Assembly (NCBI GenBank): GCA_017397175.1
Contig: JAFQKA010000010.1
Coordinates: forward strand, 1 to 45,794
DNA length: 45,794 nt
Origin: Clostridia bacterium
GTDB taxonomy: Bacteria > Bacillota > Clostridia > Oscillospirales > CAG-272
Direction of reading: 5' to 3'
Part shown: positions 33,122 to 45,794 of the stretch, in pieces
Position numbering within the stretch: the stretch's first letter is position 1
Layout: each line of letters begins with the position of its first letter
Made by a program: the position numbers and the translations under genes
Notes under the pieces: model-generated
What the model was told of the DNA's origin: nothing
Databases searched by the model: none
Seen by the model: the letters and a program-made list of their open reading frames with translations, nothing else

Positions 33122-33176
33122 AAAAAAACAATAAGGGCAGGCATGTACCACAAAAGCACACGACTGCCCGTTGTTG
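33122..33176 (-). terminator. Terminator of rpmE
   Basis: On the minus strand CAACAACGGGCAG (33164-33176) pairs imperfectly with CTGCCCTTATTG (33129-33140), followed by T7. It separates rpmE from hflX. Confidence 0.8.
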
Positions 33177-33464: not shown

Positions 33465-33556
33465 GAGTTTTTTCAAAAAAAATAAAAAAACTTCTCAAAA
33501 GCCCCATTTTTGTAAGATTTATGCAAAAATGCGGAAAATTGGCGACAAATTTCTGC

Positions 33557-33585
33557 TTGACAGAAAAAAAGATCCATGTTACAAT
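33557..33585 (+). promoter_or_regulatory. Promoter of the 75-residue orphan gene
   Basis: TTGACA (33557-33562) and TACAAT (33580-33585) are separated by 17 nt. Confidence 0.85.
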
Positions 33586-33641
33586 ATGTTCGTACTTAAA
33601 TGAGGCTACGGCTTCAAATATTTTTGGAGGATTTCAATTTT

Positions 33642-33869
33642 ATGTTAAAAACTATATGTGGCAAACAGTATGACACAGATAGCGCAACTCTTATCAAGAA
33701 GAAGACCTTTGGTGCTTACGGTGATCCCGCAGGCTACGAGGAGTCTCTTTATCAGACCGAGGCAGGTCTTTATTTCCTTTACGTAAACGGCGGTGCAGAA
33801 TCCGCCTATACCAAGGAGGATATTAAGAGAATGTCCAAGGCAAACGCTGAAAAGTGGCTTGCTGAGTAA
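33642..33869 (+). CDS. Small conserved-looking protein of unknown function
   Basis: 75 residues from ATG 33642, with GGAGG 11 nt upstream. An ATG-like start at 33600 would begin close to the transcription start and has no ribosome site. The sequence is soluble and moderately charged (AYTKEDIKRMSKANAEKWL at the C-terminus, a likely helix; two aromatic-rich strands before it). I do not recognise it. It has its own strong promoter and terminator, which makes a real, expressed gene likely. Confidence 0.8.
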   Translation: MLKTICGKQYDTDSATLIKKKTFGAYGDPAGYEESLYQTEAGLYFLYVNGGAESAYTKEDIKRMSKANAEKWLAE

Positions 33870-33873
33870 GGTC

Positions 33874-33911
33874 GAAAGAAAGAGGGCTGCGTTAAGCAGC
33901 CCTCTTTCTTT
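33874..33911. terminator. Bidirectional terminator, orphan gene / surface esterase
   Basis: AAAGAAAGAGGGCTGC-gttaa-GCAGCCCTCTTTCTTT is a 16-bp stem between convergent genes. Confidence 0.94.
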
Positions 33912-33916
33912 TGAGT

Positions 33917-36073
33917 TTATTTTTTCTTTTTCTTAAATATTGCAAGAAGAGCAACACCTGCCGCAACGATGGCGGCCGCTGCCGCGCCAATGATTATTGG
34001 CAGAGAGGATTTATTTTCCTTGTCTGTGTCGGAGGTGTCGTTGGTTTTGTCGTCATCTGTCTGAGCGGGCTTGCTGTCGTCGGGAGTGATTTCGGGTGTG
34101 GTATCCTCTGCTGTATCTGCGGTGGTGTCGTCGGGTTCCTCGCCCTTTACGACCTCAAACTTTATGTTCATGGCCTGTGCGTATTCGGCAGCGTAAGAGG
34201 AAGGCTCAACCAGGAGCGTAAGACCTGTGGGATCTGTATTGAATGCCGATTCGGCAATGTTGATTACAGACTTTGGAATCTGTATTTCGACGCCCGAAAC
34301 ACCCGTAAGGTCAAGCGCGTAAGCACCGACCGAGATAAAATCGCCGTCAAGAACGATCTTCTTTATCTGACGTCTCTTGCCAAGCCAGGGAGCTTCGTCG
34401 TCGGGGAATGCCAAAACGCCGCTACCCTTGACTGTAAGCGTGCCGTCGGTCAGATCCCAGTCGGAGATGACTGTTTCAAGGGAACAGTCAAAAGATACGC
34501 TGTAGTCTGCCTTTTTGTAGGTTGCGTTGTCCTTTATGTCACTTCCTCCGTCGTGGGTCTTGCCCTGACGCCAGGTGATCGAGAAATGACCTGCTTCAAC
34601 GTCCTTGCCGCGCGTCAGATTGTTGTAGAGTGCCATATTGCCGGTAGGGGGACAAGTTGTGTCGCCCATGCCCGCGGAAAGAGTTGTAGGGCACTTGATG
34701 AGCGTTGCGAGATTTGCCGTGTCGCAGTATCTGATACCGTCGCCCGCTGTGGGACGGAGGGTTGAGTGGATCTTATCCTCGTCTGTGTTTCCGTGTGTGT
34801 CGCACATCCAGGAGGAGCTTGCCGCGCAGCTTGTTACTTGAGGGCACAGCGCTGCCAGACCGAGAGCCATAAATCCGCCTTGGCTTCCGCCGCTGACAGA
34901 GATCTTATTGCCCTTTTTGTAAAGCCCCTTCCAGGAATCAAAGCAGCTCTGGATTTCTGCTTCGGTCATGGTTTCGGATTCAAATCCTTTTGCCAGAGCG
35001 CCGCCCTCTTCACCGAAGGCCTTTTCAAGGAAGCGGAGTGCTTGTACCTCGCGCAAAAGCACGTTACGCTGATAGCAGGTCTCGATATTATCGTTGTCCG
35101 TTGTGGTCATGCCGTAGCCGTTGACCCAACCCGAATAGTTTGTTTTGAAATCGGCGTTGGTCATTTCGGGCAGGAGATAGAGGGAATGTGCCAGAATGTT
35201 GATGCCGATATTGTCGCCGGGGTTGGTCTGAGGGTTAACAGTCTGAACGCCGTATCCGATAAAGCCGAAATTGAAGCCCAGAGAGCCGGGAGCCTTGTTC
35301 TTTGGAACGGTTATGTATGCCGATGCAAAGGTGGCACCGTCGTCGGGACCCTTTCCGGTATTGCCCGCGGGGCGCTTGATGTTGGCAGGGTTTCCGATAC
35401 AGTCGATATAAACTGCGTAAACGTCAACGCCGGGGTAGTTTTCTGCCTGGGTCCTTATCTTACCGTCGGAGGCGTAGAAGGATTCGACCTTTTCGATCTT
35501 GATCAGGTCGGGAGCGCACTCGTCAAGAAGCTCAAGCTGCTCTTTCCAGACCTGTTCAAAGTCGTCGGGTATCGGCTCGGTTGTGGTAATATTCTGAGCG
35601 TCAACCAGAACACCGCCCTGGAAAAGAGGCTTGTTCGACAGATAGCGGTAATCGGTGAGTGCCTTTCCGTTTTCGTCGCACACGTCGGCCTCAAGACGAA
35701 CGTAGCCTGTCTGATTCATTGTGGTAAATGTCACGGTAGCGTTGCCGTTTTCGTCGGACATAACGTAACCGCTCTTTTCATAATCCTTGCCCGCGTCACC
35801 CTTTACCGTGTACGCAAAGCCGGGCGCGGCTATCTTCTTTCCGTTCTCGTCCCAGAGAGCAAGAGTGAAGGTCACGGTCTCACCCTGTGTATACAAGACC
35901 ATGTTCTTGTCCGACTGACCTGTGATATAAACGCCGCTGTCGTATTTTCCTGTGGTCATCGGAATCGAGCGTAGGTCGAGAAGATTTGCGCCGTAAGAGG
36001 GAACGACAGCCGCCGTCATCAGCATGGCAGAGAGCAGAACAGAGCTGATAATTCTTTTGTTGATCTTTTTCAT
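33917..36073 (-). CDS. Surface-anchored acetyl-xylan-esterase-like protein with BspA-type repeat tail
   Basis: 718 residues from ATG 36073 (AAAGGA upstream). Layout: a signal peptide (residues 1-28, MLMTAAVVPSYGA), an Ig-like N-domain, then an AXE1/cephalosporin-C-deacetylase-like alpha/beta hydrolase with Ser397 in SGGSQGG, an acid-containing LSAGMGDTTCPPTGNM and His in VEAGHFSI. Next is a short BspA-like leucine-rich segment (GVLAFPDDEAPWLGKRRQIKKIVL, then IPKSVINIAESAFN), an acidic Thr/Asp linker and a C-terminal TM (IIIGAAAAAIVAAGVALLAIF) followed by five lysines. It is thus held on the outer membrane face of a Gram-positive cell and removes acetyl groups from hemicellulose. Specificity is inferred. 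Confidence 0.9.
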   Translation of the reverse strand: MKKINKRIISSVLLSAMLMTAAVVPSYGANLLDLRSIPMTTGKYDSGVYITGQSDKNMVLYTQGETVTFTLALWDENGKKIAAPGFAYTVKGDAGKDYEKSGYVMSDENGNATVTFTTMNQTGYVRLEADVCDENGKALTDYRYLSNKPLFQGGVLVDAQNITTTEPIPDDFEQVWKEQLELLDECAPDLIKIEKVESFYASDGKIRTQAENYPGVDVYAVYIDCIGNPANIKRPAGNTGKGPDDGATFASAYITVPKNKAPGSLGFNFGFIGYGVQTVNPQTNPGDNIGINILAHSLYLLPEMTNADFKTNYSGWVNGYGMTTTDNDNIETCYQRNVLLREVQALRFLEKAFGEEGGALAKGFESETMTEAEIQSCFDSWKGLYKKGNKISVSGGSQGGFMALGLAALCPQVTSCAASSSWMCDTHGNTDEDKIHSTLRPTAGDGIRYCDTANLATLIKCPTTLSAGMGDTTCPPTGNMALYNNLTRGKDVEAGHFSITWRQGKTHDGGSDIKDNATYKKADYSVSFDCSLETVISDWDLTDGTLTVKGSGVLAFPDDEAPWLGKRRQIKKIVLDGDFISVGAYALDLTGVSGVEIQIPKSVINIAESAFNTDPTGLTLLVEPSSYAAEYAQAMNIKFEVVKGEEPDDTTADTAEDTTPEITPDDSKPAQTDDDKTNDTSDTDKENKSSLPIIIGAAAAAIVAAGVALLAIFKKKKK

Positions 36074-36114
36074 ATGAGTCCTTTCCACCGAAATAAGATC
36101 GGATTTGGAGAAAT

Positions 36115-36134
36115 AATAAGTTGATAAACTTATT
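36115..36134. repeat. 20-bp palindrome at the esterase transcription start
   Basis: AATAAGTT-gata-AACTTATT lies directly after the expected start of the minus-strand transcript. It could be an operator or a 5' stabilising hairpin. Confidence 0.65.
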
Positions 36135-36142
36135 CTTCCGAT

Positions 36143-36171
36143 ATTTTACGCCTTTTTCCTCTCAAAAGCAA
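36143..36171 (-). promoter_or_regulatory. Promoter of the surface esterase
   Basis: TTGCTT (36166-36171) and TAAAAT (36143-36148) are separated by 17 nt on the minus strand. Confidence 0.68.
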
Positions 36172-36245
36172 TATGTTATTTATTTTTTGTTTAATATATA
36201 CAAACGGTTTTGTATAAAATACCCATGAAAGCGAGGTACGCAACT

Positions 36246-37610
36246 ATGATGACTGAAAAGTACGCGGAAATGCTGGAGTTGCTCCAAAACAAGCGGTATT
36301 CCGAGCTTATGCGGCAAATGGATACCTTGAATCCTATCCATTGCGCAGAATTTTTTGAGGAGCTTGAGCGACCGCAGCAGATAATGGTCTTCCGGATGCT
36401 CAAAAAGGATATGTCTGCGGAAATTTTCGCGGAGCTGTCACAGGAGACCATGGAAAATATCATTCGATCGGTCAGTGACAACGAGCTTTCCGCTATTATA
36501 GAGGAGCTTTTTGTGGACGACGCCGTGGATATGCTTGAGGAGCTTCCCGCAGGTATGGTAAAGCGTATTCTCAAAACGGTTAAGCCCGAGACCAGAGCTA
36601 CCATCAACCGTTTCCTCAGCTATCCCGAGGGATCTGCCGGAAGCATTATGACAGCCGAATTTATCGACTTCCGCCGAAATATGACGGTTTCCCAGGCAAT
36701 AGCCCACATCAAAAAGACAGGTGATGATAAAGAGACCGTATACGTCGGATATATTACCGATGAAAAGCGGATTCTTCAGGGCAGTATCCGAATTGAGAAA
36801 CTGCTTTTCTCGGAAGGAGACACGTTGCTTTCCGACATTATGAATACGGACTTTGTCTGCGCGGGCACTCACGACGATGAGGAAAGTGTGGCAGACACCA
36901 TCTCAAAATATGACCTTCCCGCACTACCTGTTGTTGACGCGGAGGGCAGACTGGTGGGTATCGTTACCGTCGACGATGCTATCGACGTTATCGAGGAAAA
37001 GAACACCGAGGATATGGAAATGATGGCGGCTATGACCCCTACGGATAAGCCGTATCTGAAAACGGGCGTTCTTTCTACGTTTGTCAAGAGGATCCCCTGG
37101 CTTCTTCTGCTCATGGTGACCTCAACCTTTACAGGACGCATAATTTCCGGCTTTGAAAGCGCGCTTTCTGCGTTTCCCGTGCTTATTGCTTTTATACCTA
37201 TGCTCATGGGTACGGGAGGAAACTCGGGAGGACAGTCCTCTGTGGCGGTCATTCGCGGACTTGCTCTTGATGAGATACGGCCCGCGGACGTCTTTTGTGT
37301 TGTGATAAAGGAATCGGGCGTGGCAATTCTTTGCGGTGCGGCACTGGCAGTCTGCAACCTGCTGAAAATAATGCTTATTGACAATCTTATCTTTCACATG
37401 AACGTCGGCACCGTGGCGGCTGTGGTTATCTCGCTGACGCTTTTTACAACCGTGCTTGTGTCAAAGCTCGTGGGCGGCGCACTTCCCATTTTGGCAAAGG
37501 TGACGGGGCTTGATCCCGCCGTTATGGCAAGTCCTTTTATTACAACTATTGTTGATGCCGTATCCCTGCTTCTTTATTTTGGATTTGCACAGGCAATTCT
37601 CATAAAATAA
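36246..37610 (+). CDS. mgtE: Magnesium transporter MgtE
   Basis: 454 residues from ATG 36246, preceded by GCGAGG; in-frame upstream ATGs at 36210 and 36225 lie at or before the likely TATAAA -10 box (36213-36218). Layout: an MgtE N-domain of short helical repeats (LELLQNKRYSELMRQMDTLNP, FFEELERPQQ), two CBS domains (ends at GIVTVDDAIDVIEEKN) and a five-TM pore with PMLMGTGGNSGGQSSV. The cytosolic domains close the pore when Mg2+ is high. The upstream gap is too short for an M-box riboswitch. Confidence 0.95.
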   Translation: MMTEKYAEMLELLQNKRYSELMRQMDTLNPIHCAEFFEELERPQQIMVFRMLKKDMSAEIFAELSQETMENIIRSVSDNELSAIIEELFVDDAVDMLEELPAGMVKRILKTVKPETRATINRFLSYPEGSAGSIMTAEFIDFRRNMTVSQAIAHIKKTGDDKETVYVGYITDEKRILQGSIRIEKLLFSEGDTLLSDIMNTDFVCAGTHDDEESVADTISKYDLPALPVVDAEGRLVGIVTVDDAIDVIEEKNTEDMEMMAAMTPTDKPYLKTGVLSTFVKRIPWLLLLMVTSTFTGRIISGFESALSAFPVLIAFIPMLMGTGGNSGGQSSVAVIRGLALDEIRPADVFCVVIKESGVAILCGAALAVCNLLKIMLIDNLIFHMNVGTVAAVVISLTLFTTVLVSKLVGGALPILAKVTGLDPAVMASPFITTIVDAVSLLLYFGFAQAILIK

Positions 37611-37613
37611 TTG

Positions 37614-37642
37614 TTGACATAAAAAAACAAAAGTGATATAAT
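37614..37642 (+). promoter_or_regulatory. Consensus sigma-A promoter of the kinase gene
   Basis: TTGACA (37614-37619) and TATAAT (37637-37642) are separated by 17 nt, starting directly after mgtE. Confidence 0.92.
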
Positions 37643-37672
37643 TTTATTCAAATCCAATACAGAGGTAAAAAA

Positions 37673-38506
37673 ATGGAAAAAGCTAAAAGAATTTTGACGA
37701 TACAAGACGTGTCATGTGTTGGTCAGTGCTCTCTGACCGTTGCCCTTCCCATCGTCTCCGCTTGCGGAATCGAGACGTCGGTGTTGCCGTCCTCGGTGCT
37801 TTCCACCCACACGGGCGGATTTGTAGGCTATACCTTCCGCGACCTGACCGACGATATGCCCTCAATTGAGAAGCACTGGATAAGCGAGGGCTTGAAATTC
37901 GATGCCTTCTATACGGGCTACGTCAGCGAAAGCCAAATAGACTACATTTTAAGTATAATGGACAGCTGTGCCTCCGACGGTGCTCTTCGCATCGTTGACC
38001 CTGCCATGGCAGATAACGGCAAGCTCTACGTGGGCTTCGGACAGGATTTCCCGAAGAAAATGGCGAAGCTCTGCCGTGGTGCGGATTACATACTACCCAA
38101 TCTCACCGAGGCTGCACTGCTTCTTGACCAGGAGCCTGTACTGTCGGGCTACGGAAAGGAATATATTGAGCTGCTTCTCCGTCAGCTTACAACGCTTGGG
38201 GCGAAGAATATTATTCTTACCGGCGTTTCCTTTGACGATAATAATCTGGGCGTTGCTACATATGACGGCAAGGAAGTAAAGTATTATTTCAATGCGAAGA
38301 TTCCCAGAATGTCCCACGGAACGGGCGACGTTTTCGCTTCCGCATTTACAGGCGCGCTCATGCGCGGCGCTGATGCGGATAAGGCTGCGGCGATTGCGGC
38401 GGACTTTGTCTGCGAAAGCATAAAGGCTACCCCCGAAGATCATACCTACGGCGTTTGTTTTGAGCGAGCAATACCCACTCTTGTTGACGCTATCGGAAGA
38501 ATTTGA
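37673..38506 (+). CDS. Pyridoxal/pyridoxamine kinase-like protein
   Basis: 277 residues of the ribokinase-like PdxK/PdxY family, which phosphorylates pyridoxal, pyridoxamine or pyridoxine. Signatures are TIQDVSCVGQCSLTVALPI near the N-terminus, PNLTEAALLL, KNIILTGVSFD, and the catalytic GTGD (Asp219 in SHGTGDVFAS). The form is the one often annotated pyridoxamine kinase in Clostridia. No other vitamin B6 gene is adjacent. Confidence 0.92.
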   Translation: MEKAKRILTIQDVSCVGQCSLTVALPIVSACGIETSVLPSSVLSTHTGGFVGYTFRDLTDDMPSIEKHWISEGLKFDAFYTGYVSESQIDYILSIMDSCASDGALRIVDPAMADNGKLYVGFGQDFPKKMAKLCRGADYILPNLTEAALLLDQEPVLSGYGKEYIELLLRQLTTLGAKNIILTGVSFDDNNLGVATYDGKEVKYYFNAKIPRMSHGTGDVFASAFTGALMRGADADKAAAIAADFVCESIKATPEDHTYGVCFERAIPTLVDAIGRI

Positions 38507-38516
38507 TATTTTCTCG

Positions 38517-38544
38517 AAAAAGCGTAACAAGTGTTACGCTTTTT
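38517..38544 (+). terminator. Terminator of the kinase gene, overlapping an ECF-like promoter
   Basis: AAAAAGCGTAAC-aagt-GTTACGCTTTTT is a 12-bp stem after the kinase stop. The same bases hold the -35-like GTAAC of the next gene, so terminator and promoter share sequence. Confidence 0.8.
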
Positions 38545-38549
38545 CCGTC
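38524..38549 (+). promoter_or_regulatory. ECF-sigma-like promoter, lipoprotein gene 1
   Basis: GTAAC (38524-38528), 17 nt, CGTC (38546-38549), then TTTATAAGTAGA. The same element recurs before the next two genes. AAC at -35 and CGTC at -10 is the usual pattern of ECF sigma promoters such as those of B. subtilis SigM, SigX and SigV. Confidence 0.6.
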
Positions 38550-38588
38550 TTTATAAGTAGATGAAGATACTGAAAGGAGGATTTCAAT

Positions 38589-40133
38589 ATGAAGAAGCTA
38601 CTTGTGATTTTGGTTGTTTTGGTGCTGTTGCTCACCTCCTGCACCGTAACTCGTCCGGCAGATGGGGATAAGCTGCCAATTAAAGATGGGAATACCACTG
38701 ATATAATCGCAGACAAGGATGACGAATCGTCAGCCGAGGTGAAAAAGCTCTCTTTTACCTCTTACAGCTGTTGGGCGAACTGGACCGATGACGAGAGGAT
38801 CATGCAGGGGATAGTCAATCCCGACACGGTCAGCCACGATTATCCAAGAACTCATTTGCCTTTGTACCGAATTGACAGCGTGGAGTCTCTTGAGAAATTT
38901 AAGACTGACTATGCCGATGTCTTTTCTTTGGATTATAATTATGACGGTATCCTCTGTTTTAATGAGCAAACCGCCAATAACGATGAGGCATTCTTTGAGG
39001 AGAACATAATCTTTGTTGTCTATATGGAGGCGGCAAGCGGTTCGTTCAGATACGAAGTTTACGGTGCTCAGGTCGTGGGAAAAACTCTTATGATTGAGCT
39101 CGTGCAGATCAATCCCCCCGAGACACATACCGACGATATGTCGGGTTGGCTTATAGCTCTTGAAATAGACAGGGAAGATATTGAGGGCTGCACCTCGTTT
39201 GATGCTGTTTATAATGGAATGATGCGAGACGCTTGGTTTGAAAACTATGAATTTATAGAGCCACCGTCCTTGACCGTCGCAAGTCCATACGGAGAGATCG
39301 AAGCAATACAAAGCGGCGCACATTGGTGGGGCGGAGAAATGGGAATGATAACCGACAGCGATTATCCCTATGCGGATGAATTTCTTGATAATATGAATTA
39401 TCTGCCCAATGCGGAATTTTTCGGAGAGGACGCGGTCATAGGAAAGCTTACCTTTGATTTTGCTCGGCAACCGGATAAAATATATATGAGCCGTTGGCGC
39501 ATCGGAGATGAGAGAAATCACGCGTCCCACTACGATATTGACGTCAGTGTGGATGACAAGGGGATTACGTTTCCTCTCAATACCTCAGGGTGTTATGCGT
39601 ATTCTTTGAATGCCACGTGGGAAAAGGTCGACAATGTGGGCGGCTCCGCATCGTATTATTTCTGCGTTGGCGACCGCGAGGGATATTATGATAAAACCTG
39701 CTCCCCACAGCTTTTCGTTGTCGTTCGACAGTTTGAGCTGAAGGCGAAGACGGTGTCCGACGGTTGGACTTATCCTTCGCTTGTAGGCATGGAAAATGTA
39801 AGGGAAAGCTCTGACATTTTGAGGGAATATCAGCTTGGAAACCTTCCGCTGATCTCAACCGATGCTTATGGTTACGGGCAGCAGGCAAAACTGATCTTTG
39901 ATTTTGACGGTGAGGTGCAGGTGGCGGTTCGTCGATGGAATATGGAAGCGGCGAAATATACCGGTTACGATGCGGCTTGTGAGAACGTAAAGGTCGATGA
40001 AAACATGACGATAGAACTTGAAAGAAGAGGAATCTACGTTTACGAGGTGACCGCCGTTTGGGAGATTTCCGATGGGGTTGGCGGCAAGATGACCTATGGT
40101 TTTTACGAAGGCCCTGAGACAACCCAATCATAA
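38589..40133 (+). CDS. Lipoprotein 1: paralogue family, two C-terminal repeat domains
   Basis: 514 residues with a lipoprotein signal peptide and lipobox LLTSC (Cys18). A low-complexity linker leads to an N-domain (SYSCWANWTDDERIMQGI, then NPDTVSHDY and LPLYRIDSVESLEKF) shared with lipoprotein 3. Two related C-terminal beta-rich domains follow. The first ends with FDFARQPDKIYMSRW and LNATWEKVDNVGGSASYYF. The second ends with FDFDGEVQVAVRRW and VTAVWEISDGVGGKMTYGF. The RW...Y.V.A.W....GG..(T)Y.F pattern occurs twice. I do not know a named function; the protein should sit on the outer membrane face. A strong AAAGGAGG ribosome site precedes the start. Confidence 0.85.
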   Translation: MKKLLVILVVLVLLLTSCTVTRPADGDKLPIKDGNTTDIIADKDDESSAEVKKLSFTSYSCWANWTDDERIMQGIVNPDTVSHDYPRTHLPLYRIDSVESLEKFKTDYADVFSLDYNYDGILCFNEQTANNDEAFFEENIIFVVYMEAASGSFRYEVYGAQVVGKTLMIELVQINPPETHTDDMSGWLIALEIDREDIEGCTSFDAVYNGMMRDAWFENYEFIEPPSLTVASPYGEIEAIQSGAHWWGGEMGMITDSDYPYADEFLDNMNYLPNAEFFGEDAVIGKLTFDFARQPDKIYMSRWRIGDERNHASHYDIDVSVDDKGITFPLNTSGCYAYSLNATWEKVDNVGGSASYYFCVGDREGYYDKTCSPQLFVVVRQFELKAKTVSDGWTYPSLVGMENVRESSDILREYQLGNLPLISTDAYGYGQQAKLIFDFDGEVQVAVRRWNMEAAKYTGYDAACENVKVDENMTIELERRGIYVYEVTAVWEISDGVGGKMTYGFYEGPETTQS

Positions 40134-40140
40134 GATGATG

Positions 40141-40300
40141 GTCGCTCTGCTTTGGCAAAAAAATGAAATTTTCGGGAAAAGTGTAACAACCTCTGCGCTT
40201 TTTCTGTCTTTATAGGTAGAGATCCCAATTTGAAACAGGAGGTTTTATGAAGAGATTACTTACAATACTTGCTGTTTTTGCGTTGCTTTTGGCATCATGC
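40141..40300 (+). repeat. Upstream-and-signal-peptide repeat, copy 1
   Basis: This stretch (promoter, ribosome site and signal-peptide codons to the lipobox Cys) is nearly the same as 42373-42538. Both share TTCGGGAAAAGTGTAAC, GTCTTTATAGGTAGAGATC, CAGGAGGTTT and ATGAAGAGATTACTTACAAT. Downstream of the Cys codon the two proteins are unrelated. Confidence 0.85.
40182..40208 (+). promoter_or_regulatory. ECF-sigma-like promoter, lipoprotein gene 2
   Basis: TGTAAC (40182-40187), 17 nt, TGTC (40205-40208), then TTTATAGGTAGAGATC. The flanking bases can also form an imperfect hairpin (GAAAAGTG with CGCTTTTTC). Confidence 0.6.
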
Positions 40301-42355
40301 GCCGAAAAACCGGAAGAGAACACAAGCAAGCTGGTATACACCGAGATCAACGGCGGTTCCGAATATGAGGTGACGTCTGCGGGCTTCGAACGCGGAGATA
40401 CGCTCAACATTCCGTCCGAGTATAACGGGAAGCCCGTCACGGTTATCGGTGATAGAGCTTTTTCGGGGCTCCATTTCAAAAAAGTCGTCATACCGGACAG
40501 CGTTACTCATATAGGAAAGGAAGCCTTCGCGTCGTGCGGAGATTTGGAAAGCGTTGAAACGAGTGCCGTTTCGATCGGAGCGGCGGCGGTTTCAAATTGC
40601 AAAAATCTGAAGAGCGTAACATTTAAAGGAAATATTACGCATATTGCGGACAGCACATTCAAGGACTGCCAAAGCCTTGAAAGCATAGTTCTTCCGTCAA
40701 CGGTGACGGAGATAGGGAACAAGGCGTTCTTTAACTGTTCTGCGTTGAAGAATATAGATCTTCCCCTTGGTGTGCGCAGTATAGGTGAACAGTCATTTAT
40801 GTACTGCGGATCAATTGAGGAGCTTGTTATTCCACAATATCTTGAATCCATCGCGGAAAACGCATTCCCTTATTGTCACGGGATCAGCAGTATCCGAGTG
40901 GAATCCGGAAACAAAAGATATTATGCTGACGGAAACTGCTTGATTGAGCAGGTCGAAAATGAAAAATATCTCGTTATGGGATGTAAGACGAGTGCTATAC
41001 CGAATAATATTCACGGAATGTACGACGGTGCCTTTGAGGGCTGTGCCGAGCTTGAACAGATAAGTGTTCCCGACGGAGTGACAAGTATTCCCGAAAGCGC
41101 TTTTGCGGATTGTACTGCGCTGAAGAATGTTGTTTTACCGGAGAGTATAAAGCGAATAGAGAATGATGCATTTTCCGGTTGCCGTAATCTGGAATCCGTG
41201 AATCTTCCCGACGGTATAGAGTTTTTGGCATCTTCCGCATTCAATGAGTGCCCGGCTGTTGAGACTGAAGACAACGTGAGTTATTTGGGAAAATGGTGTC
41301 TTTCAAACAGTTCTTTTGATAAGGTCATAACGGTAAGAGAAGGAACGGAGCATATTGCAGCATACGCCTTTTCCGATCTTGAGTATATTGAGCTTCCTGT
41401 AAGCTTGAAATCCATAGGGGAAATGGCATTATGGGATTGTTTTAATATAAAGAAGATCGAATATAAGGGAACGGAGCAACAGTGGAATGATATAAAAAAG
41501 CCTACAAGTTTTATACATCCCGAATGCGAATGTGATATAAGCTTTTTGGGAGTTCCCGAAGGACATGAATACCTCTATGAAACAATGCGCGCCCTCGTTG
41601 ACGGAGCAATAGACGTTTTTGAAGATCGTTGCGGTGTAGGGGTAGGTGTGTATGAAGATCTGCGCGGTATTGAGATAGGCGATTTTGAGATATATTTTGA
41701 GGGCTTTCCCGTCGTAGAGGACGGCAGCATTGTGGAGGAGTGTCCGGTACTGAAATTAGAGGTAATATCGGGCGAGTCGAAGATACTTCCCGTGGGAACA
41801 CACGAGCTTGTCTTCTTTGAAGGAATGTATACCTCTTTCGTAAAGAAGGATGAGTTTAAATGGCCCGGGGAGCATACAAATGACATCTCTCCCGCTGTGA
41901 GATACGTATACGATGTTGGCTCTGACAGAGATTTTGAGTCTGTCAAAAAAGAGGGACTTCGTCTCTTTGGCCTTTGTGATTTCATAATAGGCCGCCTTGA
42001 TTACATATCGGGAACCTATGGCTCAAAGACCGAGGAAGAGATAAAAGCATATGCTGAAAAATACCTTGGAGTAAGCGGCGATGAGCTTGTTTTTGATGAT
42101 AATAAGATATTGAAGCTCGACGACGGTTATGCTATGCTTGGAAGAGGAGGTTCTTCACACGTATCTAATGTTATTTCGGAAGAAGTGAGGAACTCAATAA
42201 CCGTAGTCACTATGCAGTTTTGGGCGGATCATTCAAAGTTCGTTCCGTCAAGGAAGGTCGAATTCCATATGGAGCTTGTTGACGGAGAATACAAGCCTAT
42301 TAAGACTGTTATTCTTGAAGACAGCGAGTTTGCGACAGCCTACTACGGTTGTTGA
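40247..42355 (+). CDS. Lipoprotein 2: BspA-like leucine-rich-repeat protein
   Basis: 702 residues with lipobox LLASC (Cys18). Residues about 30-400 are LRR_5/BspA-type repeats of about 23 residues: VTIGD..F..C..L..V.LP..(V)..I, for example SIGEQSFMYCGSIEELVIP, IPESAFADCTALKNVVLP and IENDAFSGCRNLESVNLP. The C-terminal 300 residues (from about HEYLYETMRALVDGAIDVF) form an acidic domain I do not recognise. BspA-type repeats mediate binding to host or to other cells in some gut bacteria. It is unlike lipoproteins 1 and 3 apart from its signal peptide and promoter. Confidence 0.88.
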   Translation: MKRLLTILAVFALLLASCAEKPEENTSKLVYTEINGGSEYEVTSAGFERGDTLNIPSEYNGKPVTVIGDRAFSGLHFKKVVIPDSVTHIGKEAFASCGDLESVETSAVSIGAAAVSNCKNLKSVTFKGNITHIADSTFKDCQSLESIVLPSTVTEIGNKAFFNCSALKNIDLPLGVRSIGEQSFMYCGSIEELVIPQYLESIAENAFPYCHGISSIRVESGNKRYYADGNCLIEQVENEKYLVMGCKTSAIPNNIHGMYDGAFEGCAELEQISVPDGVTSIPESAFADCTALKNVVLPESIKRIENDAFSGCRNLESVNLPDGIEFLASSAFNECPAVETEDNVSYLGKWCLSNSSFDKVITVREGTEHIAAYAFSDLEYIELPVSLKSIGEMALWDCFNIKKIEYKGTEQQWNDIKKPTSFIHPECECDISFLGVPEGHEYLYETMRALVDGAIDVFEDRCGVGVGVYEDLRGIEIGDFEIYFEGFPVVEDGSIVEECPVLKLEVISGESKILPVGTHELVFFEGMYTSFVKKDEFKWPGEHTNDISPAVRYVYDVGSDRDFESVKKEGLRLFGLCDFIIGRLDYISGTYGSKTEEEIKAYAEKYLGVSGDELVFDDNKILKLDDGYAMLGRGGSSHVSNVISEEVRNSITVVTMQFWADHSKFVPSRKVEFHMELVDGEYKPIKTVILEDSEFATAYYGC

Positions 42356-42372
42356 TATCGAGATTTTCGAAG

Positions 42373-42538
42373 CACTCGCCATGCTTTGACAGAAAAATGA
42401 ATTTTTCGGGAAAAGTGTAACATTCTTGCGCTTTTCCCGTCTTTATAGGTAGAGATCTCATTTCGCATTACAGGAGGTTTATTTATGAAGAGATTACTTA
42501 CAATACTTGCCGTTATGGCATTGCTTCTCACATCCTGC
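42373..42538 (+). repeat. Upstream-and-signal-peptide repeat, copy 2
   Basis: This is the second copy of the repeat described at 40141-40300. The upstream similarity begins with CTTTGACAGAAAAATGAA against CTTTGGCAAAAAAATGAA and ends at the lipobox Cys codon. Confidence 0.85.
42416..42441 (+). promoter_or_regulatory. ECF-sigma-like promoter, lipoprotein gene 3
   Basis: TGTAAC (42416-42421), 16 nt, CGTC (42438-42441), then TTTATAGGTAGAGATC. GGGAAAAGTG with CGCTTTTCCC forms a 10-bp stem around it, so a terminator of the preceding gene is an alternative reading. Confidence 0.62.
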
Positions 42539-43606
42539 GTTAGCACCCGACCGCTTGATCGGGATAAGCTACCCGCAAAGGATGACGGAACGGATCTGCC
42601 CATCGTTGATAACAGACCCGCAGATATCGGAAACGATCGAATCGAAATTCCCATCCTTTCCGACCAGTACAGTGCATGGGCAAATTGGACGGACGACGAG
42701 AGGGTGACGCGGGGAATAGTCAATCCCGACACGGTCAGTCATACTTACCACAGAAAACATCTTCCACTTTATCGGATCGACAGTGTTGAGGAGCTTGAGA
42801 AGTTCATCGAGGACTACGGCGACGTTTTCTCAATGAATTACAAGTATGATGAAAACGAGGGCTTTGCGGCTGCAACGGCTCACTGCGACGTTGATTTCTT
42901 TGCGGACAAATTTCTGCTGGTGGCATATATGGAGGCTCCAAGTGGATCATTCAGATACGGTGCGCGCAATATAATCATTGATGACGGAGCACTTACTCTT
43001 GAAATTGAGCAGACTAACGATCCAGAGGCCTACACCGACGATATGTCGGGCTGGCTTGTGACGGCGGAGGTTATCCGAGCGTCTGTTACGACGGAATGTA
43101 CCTCGTATGACGCGGCCTACGTCGGGGTAAAGGGCAGGGAAGACGAGCCGGTCGTACCGCGGATAATGAGCGAGCCCCCAACACTTGCCGTAATAACACC
43201 GGATGGTTCGATAAAGGCCAGCATGGGAACCAGCAGTTGGTTTTATCCCGTGGGTGACGGCACGAGCGGTGCCAATATGTACGACAGCAATCACCCCACA
43301 AGCAAACAATTTATCGACGTTATGCCCAGACTTTCAAACGATAAATATTACGACGTTACAGGCGGCGTCTACGCTAAATTGGCATTTGATTTTCAACGTG
43401 TGCCCGAGATATCAATTAAGCGTTGGAAATGCGATGGAGACAATGTTTTCTCCGAGCCGGAGCAGGTTCAGGTCTTTGATGACATTTGTTTTCACATAAA
43501 CCAAGACGGTGAATTCATTTACGAAGTAACGGCTGTTTGGGACACGTCGATCGACGGATACGGTGGAAACGTGACCTACGTTTTCAGCATTGGACCGACC
43601 AAATGA
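42485..43606 (+). CDS. Lipoprotein 3: paralogue of lipoprotein 1 with one repeat domain
   Basis: 373 residues with lipobox LLTSC (Cys18). The N-domain is close to lipoprotein 1: WANWTDDERVTRGIVNPDTV, then HLPLYRIDSVEELEKFIEDYG, MEAPSGSFRYG and DMSGWLVT. It then has one copy of the repeat domain (PPTLAVITPDGSIKA, a GTSSWFYPVGDGTSGA turn, FDFQRVPEISIKRW and YEVTAVWDTSIDGYGGNVTY). Lipoprotein 1 has two copies. The SSWxYPxGDGT turn resembles domains of unknown function in other Bacillota lipoproteins. The function is unknown. Confidence 0.87.
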   Translation: MKRLLTILAVMALLLTSCVSTRPLDRDKLPAKDDGTDLPIVDNRPADIGNDRIEIPILSDQYSAWANWTDDERVTRGIVNPDTVSHTYHRKHLPLYRIDSVEELEKFIEDYGDVFSMNYKYDENEGFAAATAHCDVDFFADKFLLVAYMEAPSGSFRYGARNIIIDDGALTLEIEQTNDPEAYTDDMSGWLVTAEVIRASVTTECTSYDAAYVGVKGREDEPVVPRIMSEPPTLAVITPDGSIKASMGTSSWFYPVGDGTSGANMYDSNHPTSKQFIDVMPRLSNDKYYDVTGGVYAKLAFDFQRVPEISIKRWKCDGDNVFSEPEQVQVFDDICFHINQDGEFIYEVTAVWDTSIDGYGGNVTYVFSIGPTK

Positions 43607-43609
43607 ATC

Positions 43610-43645
43610 AAACAAAAAGCACGGCACGAGCCGTGCTTTTTGTTT
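43610..43645 (+). terminator. Terminator after lipoprotein gene 3
   Basis: AAACAAAAAGCACGGC-acga-GCCGTGCTTTTTGTTT, a 16-bp stem, closes the lipoprotein cluster. Confidence 0.95.
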
Positions 43646-43676
43646 GCGAAAATTTTTGAATGTGACCAAAATTTCA

Positions 43677-43916
43677 TTATGTAGGGGCGACCATTGATTG
43701 CCTGCGGTCAGATAATATCCGCCCATACGGAAAACGGCAATGAGTTGTAGTACCTCATCTTATTGAAATGTTAGATGAGATGAGAATATAACATAAAAGT
43801 TAGATTTTCTTTGCGAATTAGATTCATCTCTAATTGCAACGGATATGATTATCTCACAGATAATCCCGCCATCTTGTTCAAATTTCTTCAAACAACCCTT
43901 GAAATATAAGGGTTTT
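43677..43916. repeat. Gene-free stretch with several inverted repeats, including a GTAGGGGCG-type element
   Basis: The gap 43646-44042 holds no convincing gene. It has a GTAGGGGCGACC...GGTC...CGCCC element (GGGCG 43685-43689 with CGCCC 43720-43724; GACC with GGTC inside), of the type scattered in many Clostridia genomes. It also has CTCATCT/AGATGAG (43754-43779), GATTATCT-cac-AGATAATC (43847-43865), and AACCCTT-gaaatat-AAGGGTT (43894-43914) followed by TTGGGGCTTTTTTG. These could be remnants of a small mobile repeat. Confidence 0.55.
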
Positions 43917-43968
43917 GGGGCTTTTTTGATAAAAAAATCGGCAAAAGCGAAAAATTAACGGGGAAGAC

Positions 43969-43997
43969 TTGATTTCGCGCCACAAATGTTATATAAT
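43969..43997 (+). promoter_or_regulatory. Promoter of the LCP-glyS unit
   Basis: TTGATT (43969-43974) and TATAAT (43992-43997) are separated by 17 nt. The longest LCP frame would start inside this promoter and is rejected. Confidence 0.85.
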
Positions 43998-44042
43998 AGA
44001 ATGAATTTATTTAATTCGGATTATTTTACGGAGGTGAAGTTA

Positions 44043-45083
44043 TTGCTTTCATCAATAAGAAACTTTGCTATTACGTTTGTAATATCATTTGTTACCTTTG
44101 CGGCGTTGGCATGCCTTATAGTTTCACTGGTGTTCGGAACAGGCAACAAAAATGAACTGCCCAATGACATGATCGTCAGCGGTACAGACGACTCCTTCGG
44201 ATTTGACACGTCGGACGAGGATGATACAAGGGAAGAGCTTCAGGGTGATTCCTTCAATATGCTCTTCCTCGGACTTGACTATGCTCCCTCGCTTTTCTAC
44301 GACATCTACGATCCGGAGAGTGTTGCGGGTCTTGTGGACTATGAATCGGAGATCGAGGCGGGAAGCTCTGTCACGGACGGTATCTATCGCGAGATAAGTG
44401 CCGACACTATCATGCTTGTGTGCGTAAGCAAGGAAAGGGAAGAATTTGCATTCGCTACCTTCAGCCCCTACACGGTGGTAAGCTACAAGGGTGAGTCCGT
44501 ATACCTGGGCAGAATTTTCGAGGAATACGGTATTGGTGAATTTAAAAAGACTGTTGAAAGGCTCTCGGGTCTGACAGTTGACAGATATGCCGTTGTCAGC
44601 ATGAACGAATTTCCCGATATGCTAAATATAATAGACGGTGTTACCTTCAACGTGCCCTGCGACATGAAATACACGGATAACCGTGGTCAACTGAACATCA
44701 ATATCAAGGCAGGTATGCAGAATCTCAACGGTGAGGATGCCCTTAAGGTTCTTCGTTTCAATTCTTACGAGGGAACCGAGCATTCGAGAATGAAGACTAC
44801 CATTGAATTTGCAAAGGCTGTCATGCGTAAGCTGACAAGCGAGGCGGATATCCGCACTTACATAACAAAGGCCACCGCGCTTTTCAAAAAGGCGGACGGA
44901 ATGTTCATCACCGATTTTACAACAAACGATCTTAACGCGAACCTTGATCTGATCTTCTCTTATTCGAGATTTTCGCCCGTTACCATTGATATTCCCGGAG
45001 AATACAGGACGGTGGGCGGTGTGCTGACATTTGTACCCAACGCCAAGGGCTGCACCGAGGCTTTCAGGGATTATAAGAGATAA
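44043..45083 (+). CDS. LytR-CpsA-Psr (LCP) family protein, TTG start, lacking some conserved arginines
   Basis: 346 residues from TTG 44043, chosen because GGAGG (44030-44034) is 8 nt upstream and the only in-frame ATGs (43986, 44001) overlap or precede the transcription start. Layout: short cytosolic start, one TM (FAITFVISFVTFAALACLIVSLV), then the LCP domain: MLFLGLDY, DTIMLVCVSKE, LRFNSYEGTEHSRMKTTIEF. LCP enzymes attach wall polymers to peptidoglycan using several Arg residues. Here the usual R-S-DTIML reads SADTIML, and the SIPRDT-like strand reads FSPYTVVSYKG, so two arginines are missing. It may be a non-catalytic relative. Next gene is glyS. Confidence 0.87.
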   Translation: MLSSIRNFAITFVISFVTFAALACLIVSLVFGTGNKNELPNDMIVSGTDDSFGFDTSDEDDTREELQGDSFNMLFLGLDYAPSLFYDIYDPESVAGLVDYESEIEAGSSVTDGIYREISADTIMLVCVSKEREEFAFATFSPYTVVSYKGESVYLGRIFEEYGIGEFKKTVERLSGLTVDRYAVVSMNEFPDMLNIIDGVTFNVPCDMKYTDNRGQLNINIKAGMQNLNGEDALKVLRFNSYEGTEHSRMKTTIEFAKAVMRKLTSEADIRTYITKATALFKKADGMFITDFTTNDLNANLDLIFSYSRFSPVTIDIPGEYRTVGGVLTFVPNAKGCTEAFRDYKR

Positions 45084-45126
45084 AGAGTAAATTATTTCGC
45101 CGCGATTGCGGCAGAATGGAGACATA

Positions 45127-45794
45127 ATGAAAAACACAGAAAAGACAATGGAAAAAATCGTTGCTCTTTGCAAAACCAGAGGATTTATTTTCCCCGGCTC
45201 CGAGATCTACGGTGGTCTGGCTAATACCTGGGATTACGGACCTCTCGGCGTTGAGCTGAAGAACAACGTGAAAAAGGCATGGTGGAAGAAGTTCGTTCAG
45301 GAAAACCCCTACAACGTAGGTCTTGATGCGGCTATCCTCATGAACCCCCAGACCTGGGTCGCTTCCGGTCACCTTTCCGGATTTTCCGATCCTCTCATGG
45401 ACTGCAAGGAGTGTCACGAGCGTTTTCGCGCGGACAAGATCATCGAGGATTGGTGTGCTGAGAACAATTTTGAGCTTCCCAAGCCTATCGACGCATTTGA
45501 GCAGAGCGAGATGAAGGATTTCGTTGAAGAGCACAACATTCCCTGTCCCACCTGCGGCAAGCACAATTTCACGGATATCCGTCAGTTCAACCTTATGTTC
45601 AAGACCTTCCAGGGTGTAACCGAGGACGCAAAGAATACAGTTTATCTTCGTCCCGAAACAGCACAGGGTATCTTTGTAAACTTTGCAAATGTACAGAGAA
45701 CAACAAGAAGAAAGGTTCCCTTCGGCATTGCACAGATAGGTAAGTCCTTCAGAAATGAAATCACACCCGGCAACTTCATTTTCCGTGTTCGTGA
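45127..45794 (+). CDS. glyS: Glycyl-tRNA synthetase, dimeric (alpha2) type (3' end cut off)
   Basis: Reading from ATG 45127 gives 222 residues to the window edge: [56 protein letters not shown], then a metal-type [17 protein letters not shown] and the class II motif [15 protein letters not shown], ending [19 protein letters not shown]. It is the single-chain GlyRS used by most Bacillota and eukaryotes, not the alpha2-beta2 form. GGAG lies 5 nt before the start. It probably shares the LCP promoter; the 43-nt gap has only a small GCCGC/GCGGC hairpin and no T-box. Confidence 0.95.

Follow-up and report, generated by a model that had tools for sequence, protein, structure and literature searches.

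The envelope-stress regulons of Bacillus subtilis sigma-M, sigma-X and sigma-W each join an extracytoplasmic function (ECF) sigma factor, a membrane anti-sigma factor, a self-regulated operon and a set of envelope targets, and ECF sigma genes often transcribe themselves. The closest laboratory precedent that we found for the system described here is the Tt-RpoE1/Tt-TolB pair of Thermoanaerobacter tengcongensis: Tt-RpoE1 uses the promoter tGTTAC-N16-CGTC, shown by binding and in vitro transcription, and transcribes its own gene, and Tt-TolB is a long membrane anti-sigma factor (numbered to residue 645, membrane segment 39–61) whose N-terminus binds the sigma factor (PMC3397946). CGTC is also the −10 consensus of sigma-M (PMC6827917). 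Here we analyze a 45,794-nucleotide (nt) stretch of Clostridia bacterium DNA (assembly GCA_017397175.1, contig JAFQKA010000010.1, positions 1 to 45,794, forward strand; hereafter the window), in which three tandem lipoprotein genes are each preceded by an ECF-type promoter element.

Taken as a whole, the explanation that we hold with good confidence is that each lipoprotein gene would have its own ECF promoter, read most likely by a sigma factor whose gene lies on contig C53 of this assembly and held in check by a membrane anti-sigma factor. Regulation of this kind is already known, and the trio would be a well-supported new example.

Three promoter elements before tandem lipoprotein genes

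An earlier note on this DNA had described GTAAC, a spacer of 16–17 nt and (C/T)GTC followed by TTTATA(A/G)GTAGA before three lipoprotein genes, and reading of the window confirmed the element at three places (scores are from the promoter model described below):

38524..38561, + strand: ECF-type promoter 1; −35 GTAAC at 38524–38528, 17-nt spacer, −10 CGTC at 38546–38549, then TTTATAAGTAGA to 38561; 21.4 bits, window rank 3.
40183..40220, + strand: ECF-type promoter 2; −35 GTAAC at 40183–40187, 17-nt spacer, −10 TGTC at 40205–40208, then TTTATAGGTAGA to 40220; 23.4 bits, window rank 2.
42417..42453, + strand: ECF-type promoter 3; −35 GTAAC at 42417–42421, 16-nt spacer, −10 CGTC at 42438–42441, then TTTATAGGTAGA to 42453; 23.8 bits, window rank 1.

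The AAC-type −35 of ECF promoters is found at all three sites (GTAAC), followed after spacers of 17, 17 and 16 nt by the −10 motif, which is CGTC at two sites and TGTC at one. Read more widely, the promoters consist of a −35 TGTAAC or CGTAAC, 15–16 nt, a −10 CCGTC or CTGTC and then TTTATA. Across the entire assembly (1,520,079 bases, 72.44% complete), the genome-wide search that had been proposed returned three matches to the exact pattern, all in the window and only before these genes, with none for the reversed pattern. Sites 2 and 3 are identical in 45 of 50 columns over hairpin and promoter and in 47 of 57 over the signal-peptide codons, and sites 1 and 3 agree in 39 of 50 columns of the promoter block and 15 of 32 of the leader. 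Because the three copies are related, evidence was needed from outside the trio.

A promoter model learned from ECF sigma genes

A two-block model was trained, from random word starts, on up to 160 nt upstream of each of 80 ECF sigma genes of the same kind (L097–L176), which were the best 80 of at least 590 confirmed candidates and come from other genomes in named, mostly clostridial records. The best of 40 starts reached a log score of 851 and gave the de novo model TGTaACc-N14/15-CgGTCTaTaa.GgTG; on shuffled input, the best of 20 starts reached 162. From a seeded start, 75 of the 80 upstream regions scored above the 95% level of shuffled regions; the strict GTAAC/YGTC form was present in five of the 80 (200 nt upstream) against a shuffle mean of 0.56. 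These self-promoters share their two-block architecture and spacing with the window promoters and differ from them in that many carry TGTGAC, TGCAAC, TGTAAT or TGTAAG at −35 and other bases at −10. Sigma self-promoters alone thus suffice to recognize the ECF promoter in such genomes.

When the randomly started model was run over both strands of the window, sites 3, 2 and 1 took the first three ranks (23.8, 23.4 and 21.4 bits), the next sites scoring 15.4 and then 10.2 bits. No site of at least 21 bits arose in 200 first-order Markov copies of the window, where the best scored 19.4. The 15.4-bit site, at 43057 on the + strand, lies within lipoprotein gene 3 and is probably due to chance.

In the organism's own genome, the relaxed pattern GTAACN{15,17}YGTCTNTA gave four sites against one in the reversed control. 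The fourth (C6:5695–5724) lies 29 nt upstream of a gene that starts with TTG and encodes a product with, by eye, a lipobox-like LFGC; neither the lipoprotein 1 and 3 model nor any Pfam family above its cut-off matched this product. The pattern TGTAAYN{15,16}CYGWCTNTA gave five matches against none in its control, namely window sites 2 and 3, the C6 site, the region upstream of the C53 sigma gene and C15:44701, a doubtful match upstream of a gene judged by eye to resemble rsgA. Beyond site 3, TGTAACN{14,15}CYGTC, which covers half of the right spacings, gave four matches; the three inspected all lie within listed open frames, and the fourth (window 33583–33559, − strand) is about 400 nt upstream of a − strand frame beginning at 33161.

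Across 295 genomes of the family, own genome included, GTAACN{15,17}CGTCTWTATA occurred at 32 sites in 26 genomes, compared with 13 sites in the reversed control. Thirty of the 32 had a locus and, with the C6 site, made 31 scored sites, a set to which window site 2 does not belong. Seventeen of these scored at least 20 bits, two of them being window sites 1 and 3. By classes assigned by eye, the other 15 precede five lipoprotein genes (one of which, L045, was called by eye and missed by the script's rule), two ECF sigma genes, four genes for other secreted or membrane proteins, one ATP-binding cassette transporter gene and, in three cases, no convincing gene. The two ECF sigma genes (L056 and L062) carry the exact motif. 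Below 16 bits, eight of nine sites had no gene by the script's rule. Pattern matches alone are not enough, as L058 illustrates: this strict-pattern match folds into a strong hairpin (z −9.0), is followed by no gene under the rule applied and receives −2 from the promoter model. In genome G035 (L036/L054), a copy of this promoter scoring 25.8 bits precedes a DUF4349 lipoprotein gene, and the same genome has an ECF sigma gene beside a PF09826 protein.

The three elements are thus very probably ECF promoters, as the earlier note had proposed: the same motif emerged de novo from 80 ECF genes, stands in exact form before L056 and L062 and before envelope genes of other genomes, and has a fourth own-genome copy before a lipoprotein-like gene. 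The class of the promoter, its position before the trio and its use before ECF sigma and envelope genes elsewhere can be read from the DNA itself.

Candidate sigma factor and membrane partner

No sigma-70-region-4 or ECF match was found on the contig, which bears out the earlier statement that the matching sigma factor is not in the window; the candidate lies elsewhere in the genome. An alignment search of the assembly identified three ECF genes of one type, on contigs C53, C59 and C6. A tree of 89 ECF sequences was built by a quick method (11 of 86 branches starred). The C53 sigma factor falls in a clade of 13 (Shimodaira–Hasegawa-like approximate likelihood ratio test support 86, on a branch without a star). 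Of its 12 other rows, 7 carry a TGTAAC self-promoter (two of the seven are near-identical), compared with 3 of the 74 rows outside the clade. The C59 sigma factor groups with users of a TGTAGT/CGTAG −35.

Directly behind the C53 sigma gene lies a gene for a 677-amino-acid protein with PF09826 at 166–676 (E-value 2e-63) and, by eye, a hydrophobic segment at about 31–53. Its build recalls that of Tt-TolB: the N-terminus is short, there is one membrane segment, and a large domain (β-propeller) lies outside. From its position and build we take it to be the probable anti-sigma factor. The protein after L056 (647 amino acids) is also of PF09826, and the two share 33% identity over their length; L056 itself has the self-promoter TGTAACC-N15-CCGTCTTTATAGGTG (28.9 bits). 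A search for PF09826 returned 14 loci, of which 13 were inspected after exclusion of one weak match. Their flanks hold 12 distinct ECF genes, and one locus has none; nine of the 12 have a TGTAAC self-promoter and one TGTAAG, with none found for the remaining two.

The C53 pair resembles Tt-RpoE1/Tt-TolB in build and promoter, in that an ECF sigma gene adjoins that of a long, here putative, membrane anti-sigma factor. In the Tt-RpoE1 oligonucleotides CGTC is followed by TATAAAGGTGG, resembling the CGTCTATATAGGTG of the ECF self-promoters analyzed here (PMC3397946). The −35 differs, being GTTAC for Tt-RpoE1 and GTAAC in the window, as do the targets: transcription of its own gene was shown for Tt-RpoE1 (PMC3397946), whereas those in the window are lipoprotein genes. 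With B. subtilis sigma-M, sigma-X and sigma-W the proposed system would share an ECF sigma factor, a membrane anti-sigma factor, a self-regulated operon, a CGTC −10 and envelope targets, but the C53 sigma factor scores far below the NCBIfam cut-offs for SigV, SigW, SigX and the SigM subfamily. For ECF sigma factors with β-propeller anti-sigma partners in Firmicutes, the literature listing gave one paper, on plant polysaccharide use in two symbionts of the human gut. On contig C6, the anti-sigma-like protein beside the ECF sigma factor (L207:5967–8492) has BspA-type leucine-rich repeats (LRR_5, E-value 4.4e-19), the repeat family of lipoprotein 2.

Residues that pair with promoter bases

The general idea of specificity residues in ECF sigma factors is known. 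For this sigma type we tabulated residues against bases in 63 ECF sigma factors with a self-promoter of at least 12 bits, 26 of the 89 rows having been dropped (three own, one near-duplicate and 22 weak). At residue 80 (region 2.4), D goes with C as the second −10 base in 21 of 23 cases, N with T or G in 26 of 26 and K with G in 9 of 9. Residue 162 (region 4.2) is K with C at −35 base 6 in 47 of 47 cases, and 15 of the 16 others go with T or G; V at residue 163 goes with T at −35 base 3 and with A at base 4, each in 21 of 22. The triplets of the three own sigma factors at these residues are DRV (C53), KSV (C59) and NTV (C6), which leaves C53 as the only fit to GTAAC/CCGTC. Nine PF09826-linked ECF sigma factors outside the table have a site above 10 bits (L219, L220, L222–L227 and L230, L219 being close to a training row); eight obey the rules for residues 80 and 162. 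The ninth, L225, obeys the residue-80 rule and combines R162 with C at −35 base 6 (self-promoter TGTAACC/CTGTC). R162 of the C53 sigma factor would presumably correspond to R171 of Escherichia coli sigma-E. In a published discussion, R171 of sigma-E is said to recognize the C of GGAAC (PMC3397946). Made here for this sigma type, the residue-to-base table (80, 162 and 163) could serve as a cheap way to propose ECF sigma–target pairs in related genomes.

On its tree position, partner type and specificity residues, the C53 sigma factor is the best of the three candidates, and comparison among sequences moderately favors it as the reader of the three promoters. The C59 and C6 sigma factors fit poorly, C59 by its tree position and both by their residues.

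Evidence against the assignment and the case for another sigma factor

Several observations weigh against this account. Sites 2 and 3 lie in a block that was duplicated together with part of the gene; the three copies thus do not count as independent observations. For the four other genus genomes, GTAACN{15,17}YGTCTNTA gave one site, compared with 12 in the reversed controls. The motif lies within 300 nt upstream of only 2 of 30 homologues of lipoprotein genes 1 and 3 (window gene 1, itself among the 30, and that of genome G078; six of the 30 have less than 150 nt of upstream sequence), which means that domain and promoter do not travel together. PF09826 was found in 8 of 25 site-bearing genomes and in 3 of 25 without a site (one-sided Fisher P = 0.085, not significant; the site-free genomes were hand-picked, and one, G036, is from another family and was searched only with the narrower pattern), and G078 has two good sites but no PF09826. 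In the residue comparison, the step from R162 to C rests on one strong example (L225), site 2 has CTGTC, which in the table is paired with N80 and not D80, and ancestry shapes the table: independent pairs on well-supported branches number only 1, 2 and 1, too few for a test. The check proposed earlier, whether an ECF sigma gene carries the same promoter on itself, comes out positive for the exact form in other genomes (L056 and L062) but not for the C53 sigma gene, whose putative own promoter TGTAATT/CCGACTTTAATTGTG (TGTAAT/CCGAC, 15.3 bits) deviates from GTAAC/CGTC.

This last deviation also speaks for the strongest alternative, in which the promoters are real ECF promoters read by a different sigma factor, either one from the missing part of the genome or that of C59 or C6. 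Because 28% of the genome is missing, another sigma factor could be the reader, and the ties to the C53 sigma factor are comparative. Such a factor would be expected to have D or N at residue 80, K or R at 162 and V at 163. On the other side, the residues of C59 (KSV) and C6 (NTV) go with other bases, and C59 sits in a clade with TGTAGT or CGTAGT at −35, whereas for C53 clade, partner type and residues all agree. The search of the four other genus genomes, moreover, yielded a single strong match to this sigma type in each of G001, G003 and G004 and no further ones. We therefore regard a different reader as a minority possibility, rather unlikely but to be taken seriously.

Hairpins overlapping the promoters

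Each element also overlaps a terminator-like hairpin, with a GC-containing stem followed by a T run (shuffle z computed on 57–61-nt stretches):

38516..38545, + strand: terminator-like hairpin after the kinase gene; overlaps the −35 and spacer of promoter 1; z −6.1.
40173..40206, + strand: terminator-like hairpin after lipoprotein gene 1; overlaps promoter 2; z −2.9.
42407..42439, + strand: terminator-like hairpin after lipoprotein gene 2; overlaps promoter 3; z −4.7.

The earlier note was silent on the −35 and spacer lying within a terminator-like hairpin. At site 1, GTAAC is perfectly paired; at sites 2 and 3, where the stem contains G-U pairs and GTAAC lies partly in the loop or in weakly paired positions, it is nevertheless invariant. 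Since GTAAC is unchanged there and CGTCTTTATA lies at or past the stem end, pairing does not explain what is conserved.

The element might be nothing more than an intrinsic terminator that serves the gene before it and was copied along with the genes, which would then be transcribed by read-through or from another promoter. In favor of this, every element coincides in part with a good hairpin that follows closely on a stop codon and has a T-rich 3′ arm, sites 2 and 3 sit within the duplicated block, and family site L058 is a strong hairpin without a gene behind it. However, z was below −7 at only 3 of the 31 scored sites, namely L066 (window site 3), L055 (window site 1) and L058, and the other sites of at least 20 bits have z values of −2.8 or weaker; the promoter model, in turn, was learned from ECF genes and not from terminators. 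With the promoter half at or past the hairpin end and no strong hairpins at other good sites, we reject a terminator alone as very unlikely. Hairpin and promoter can both be real, and the hairpins, whose terminating action is putative, probably end transcription of the preceding gene and insulate each unit.

Still more improbable are housekeeping sigma-A promoters with TATAAG or TATAGG as −10, which the TATA after CGTC and a 9/12 sigma-70-like site at 38484–38512 before gene 1 might suggest: that site lies upstream of the hairpin, and a sigma-70 scan of 33500–45794, which returned sites ahead of the kinase gene (12/12, at 37614) and of a LytR/CpsA/Psr gene (10/12, at 43969), listed no site in the gaps before lipoprotein genes 2 and 3; we therefore reject this reading as very unlikely.

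Proposed regulon

In the explanation that we favor, each of the three lipoprotein genes would be transcribed from its own ECF-sigma promoter. The start codons lie 32–37 nt past TATA, each with a Shine–Dalgarno sequence upstream, and a start at the usual 7–9 nt past the −10 would give a leader of about 30–36 nt. The C53 ECF sigma factor would be the most likely reader, kept inactive by the membrane protein whose gene follows immediately; a cell-surface signal would release it, and the freed factor would transcribe the trio, the fourth lipoprotein-like gene on C6 and the sigma operon itself. The identity of the reader, the part played by the anti-sigma factor, the signal and release, and what the system is for are our inferences, as are the regulon as such and envelope stress as its trigger. 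Three uncharacterized, probable surface lipoproteins would thereby become a testable regulon with a candidate sigma factor and anti-sigma factor.

Lipoprotein genes and a possible promoter cassette

The three genes of the trio, judged by eye to encode lipoproteins, are as follows:

38589..40133, + strand: lipoprotein gene 1; 514 amino acids, without a Pfam family; ...LLLTSC by eye; 45% identity to gene 3 over the aligned part.
40247..42355, + strand: lipoprotein gene 2; 702 amino acids; BspA-type leucine-rich repeats (LRR_5, E-value 4.3e-72); ...LLLASC by eye.
42485..43606, + strand: lipoprotein gene 3; 373 amino acids, without a Pfam family; ...LLLTSC by eye; domain common to other lipoproteins and BlaR1-type M56 proteins of the family.

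Downstream of the trio, the LytR/CpsA/Psr gene has its own sigma-70-like site. Over the first stretch of the mature protein, genes 2 and 3 agree in 58 of 127 columns, and gene 2 belongs to another protein family there. At 40173–40303 and 42407–42541, promoter, leader and signal-peptide codons are alike while the mature proteins differ in family, as if a promoter-plus-signal-peptide cassette had been copied. As a tentative proposal, which we rate below even chance, terminator hairpin, ECF promoter, leader and signal peptide could spread together as a single cassette, which would have been copied in front of outside domains unrelated to one another: leucine-rich repeats in gene 2 and, in genes 1 and 3, the domain shared with BlaR1. 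The hairpin would end the preceding gene, its 5′ arm and loop holding the −35 and its 3′ arm forming the spacer. If so, new surface lipoproteins would be recruited one by one as insulated regulon members of a sigma factor that senses via a β-propeller.

A profile search of the genome contigs with the lipoprotein alignment found no relative, and the model of the domain of lipoproteins 1 and 3 gave no match to anti-sigma-like proteins at the ECF loci searched. The domain was found in 69 of the 295 family genomes, where it occurs in small proteins resembling lipoproteins and, in BlaR1-type proteins, in the portion that follows the M56 domain. The lipoproteins may have a surface or sensor-related role. 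At L084 and L088, the domain is placed behind the M56 domain of BlaR1-type membrane peptidases of the family.

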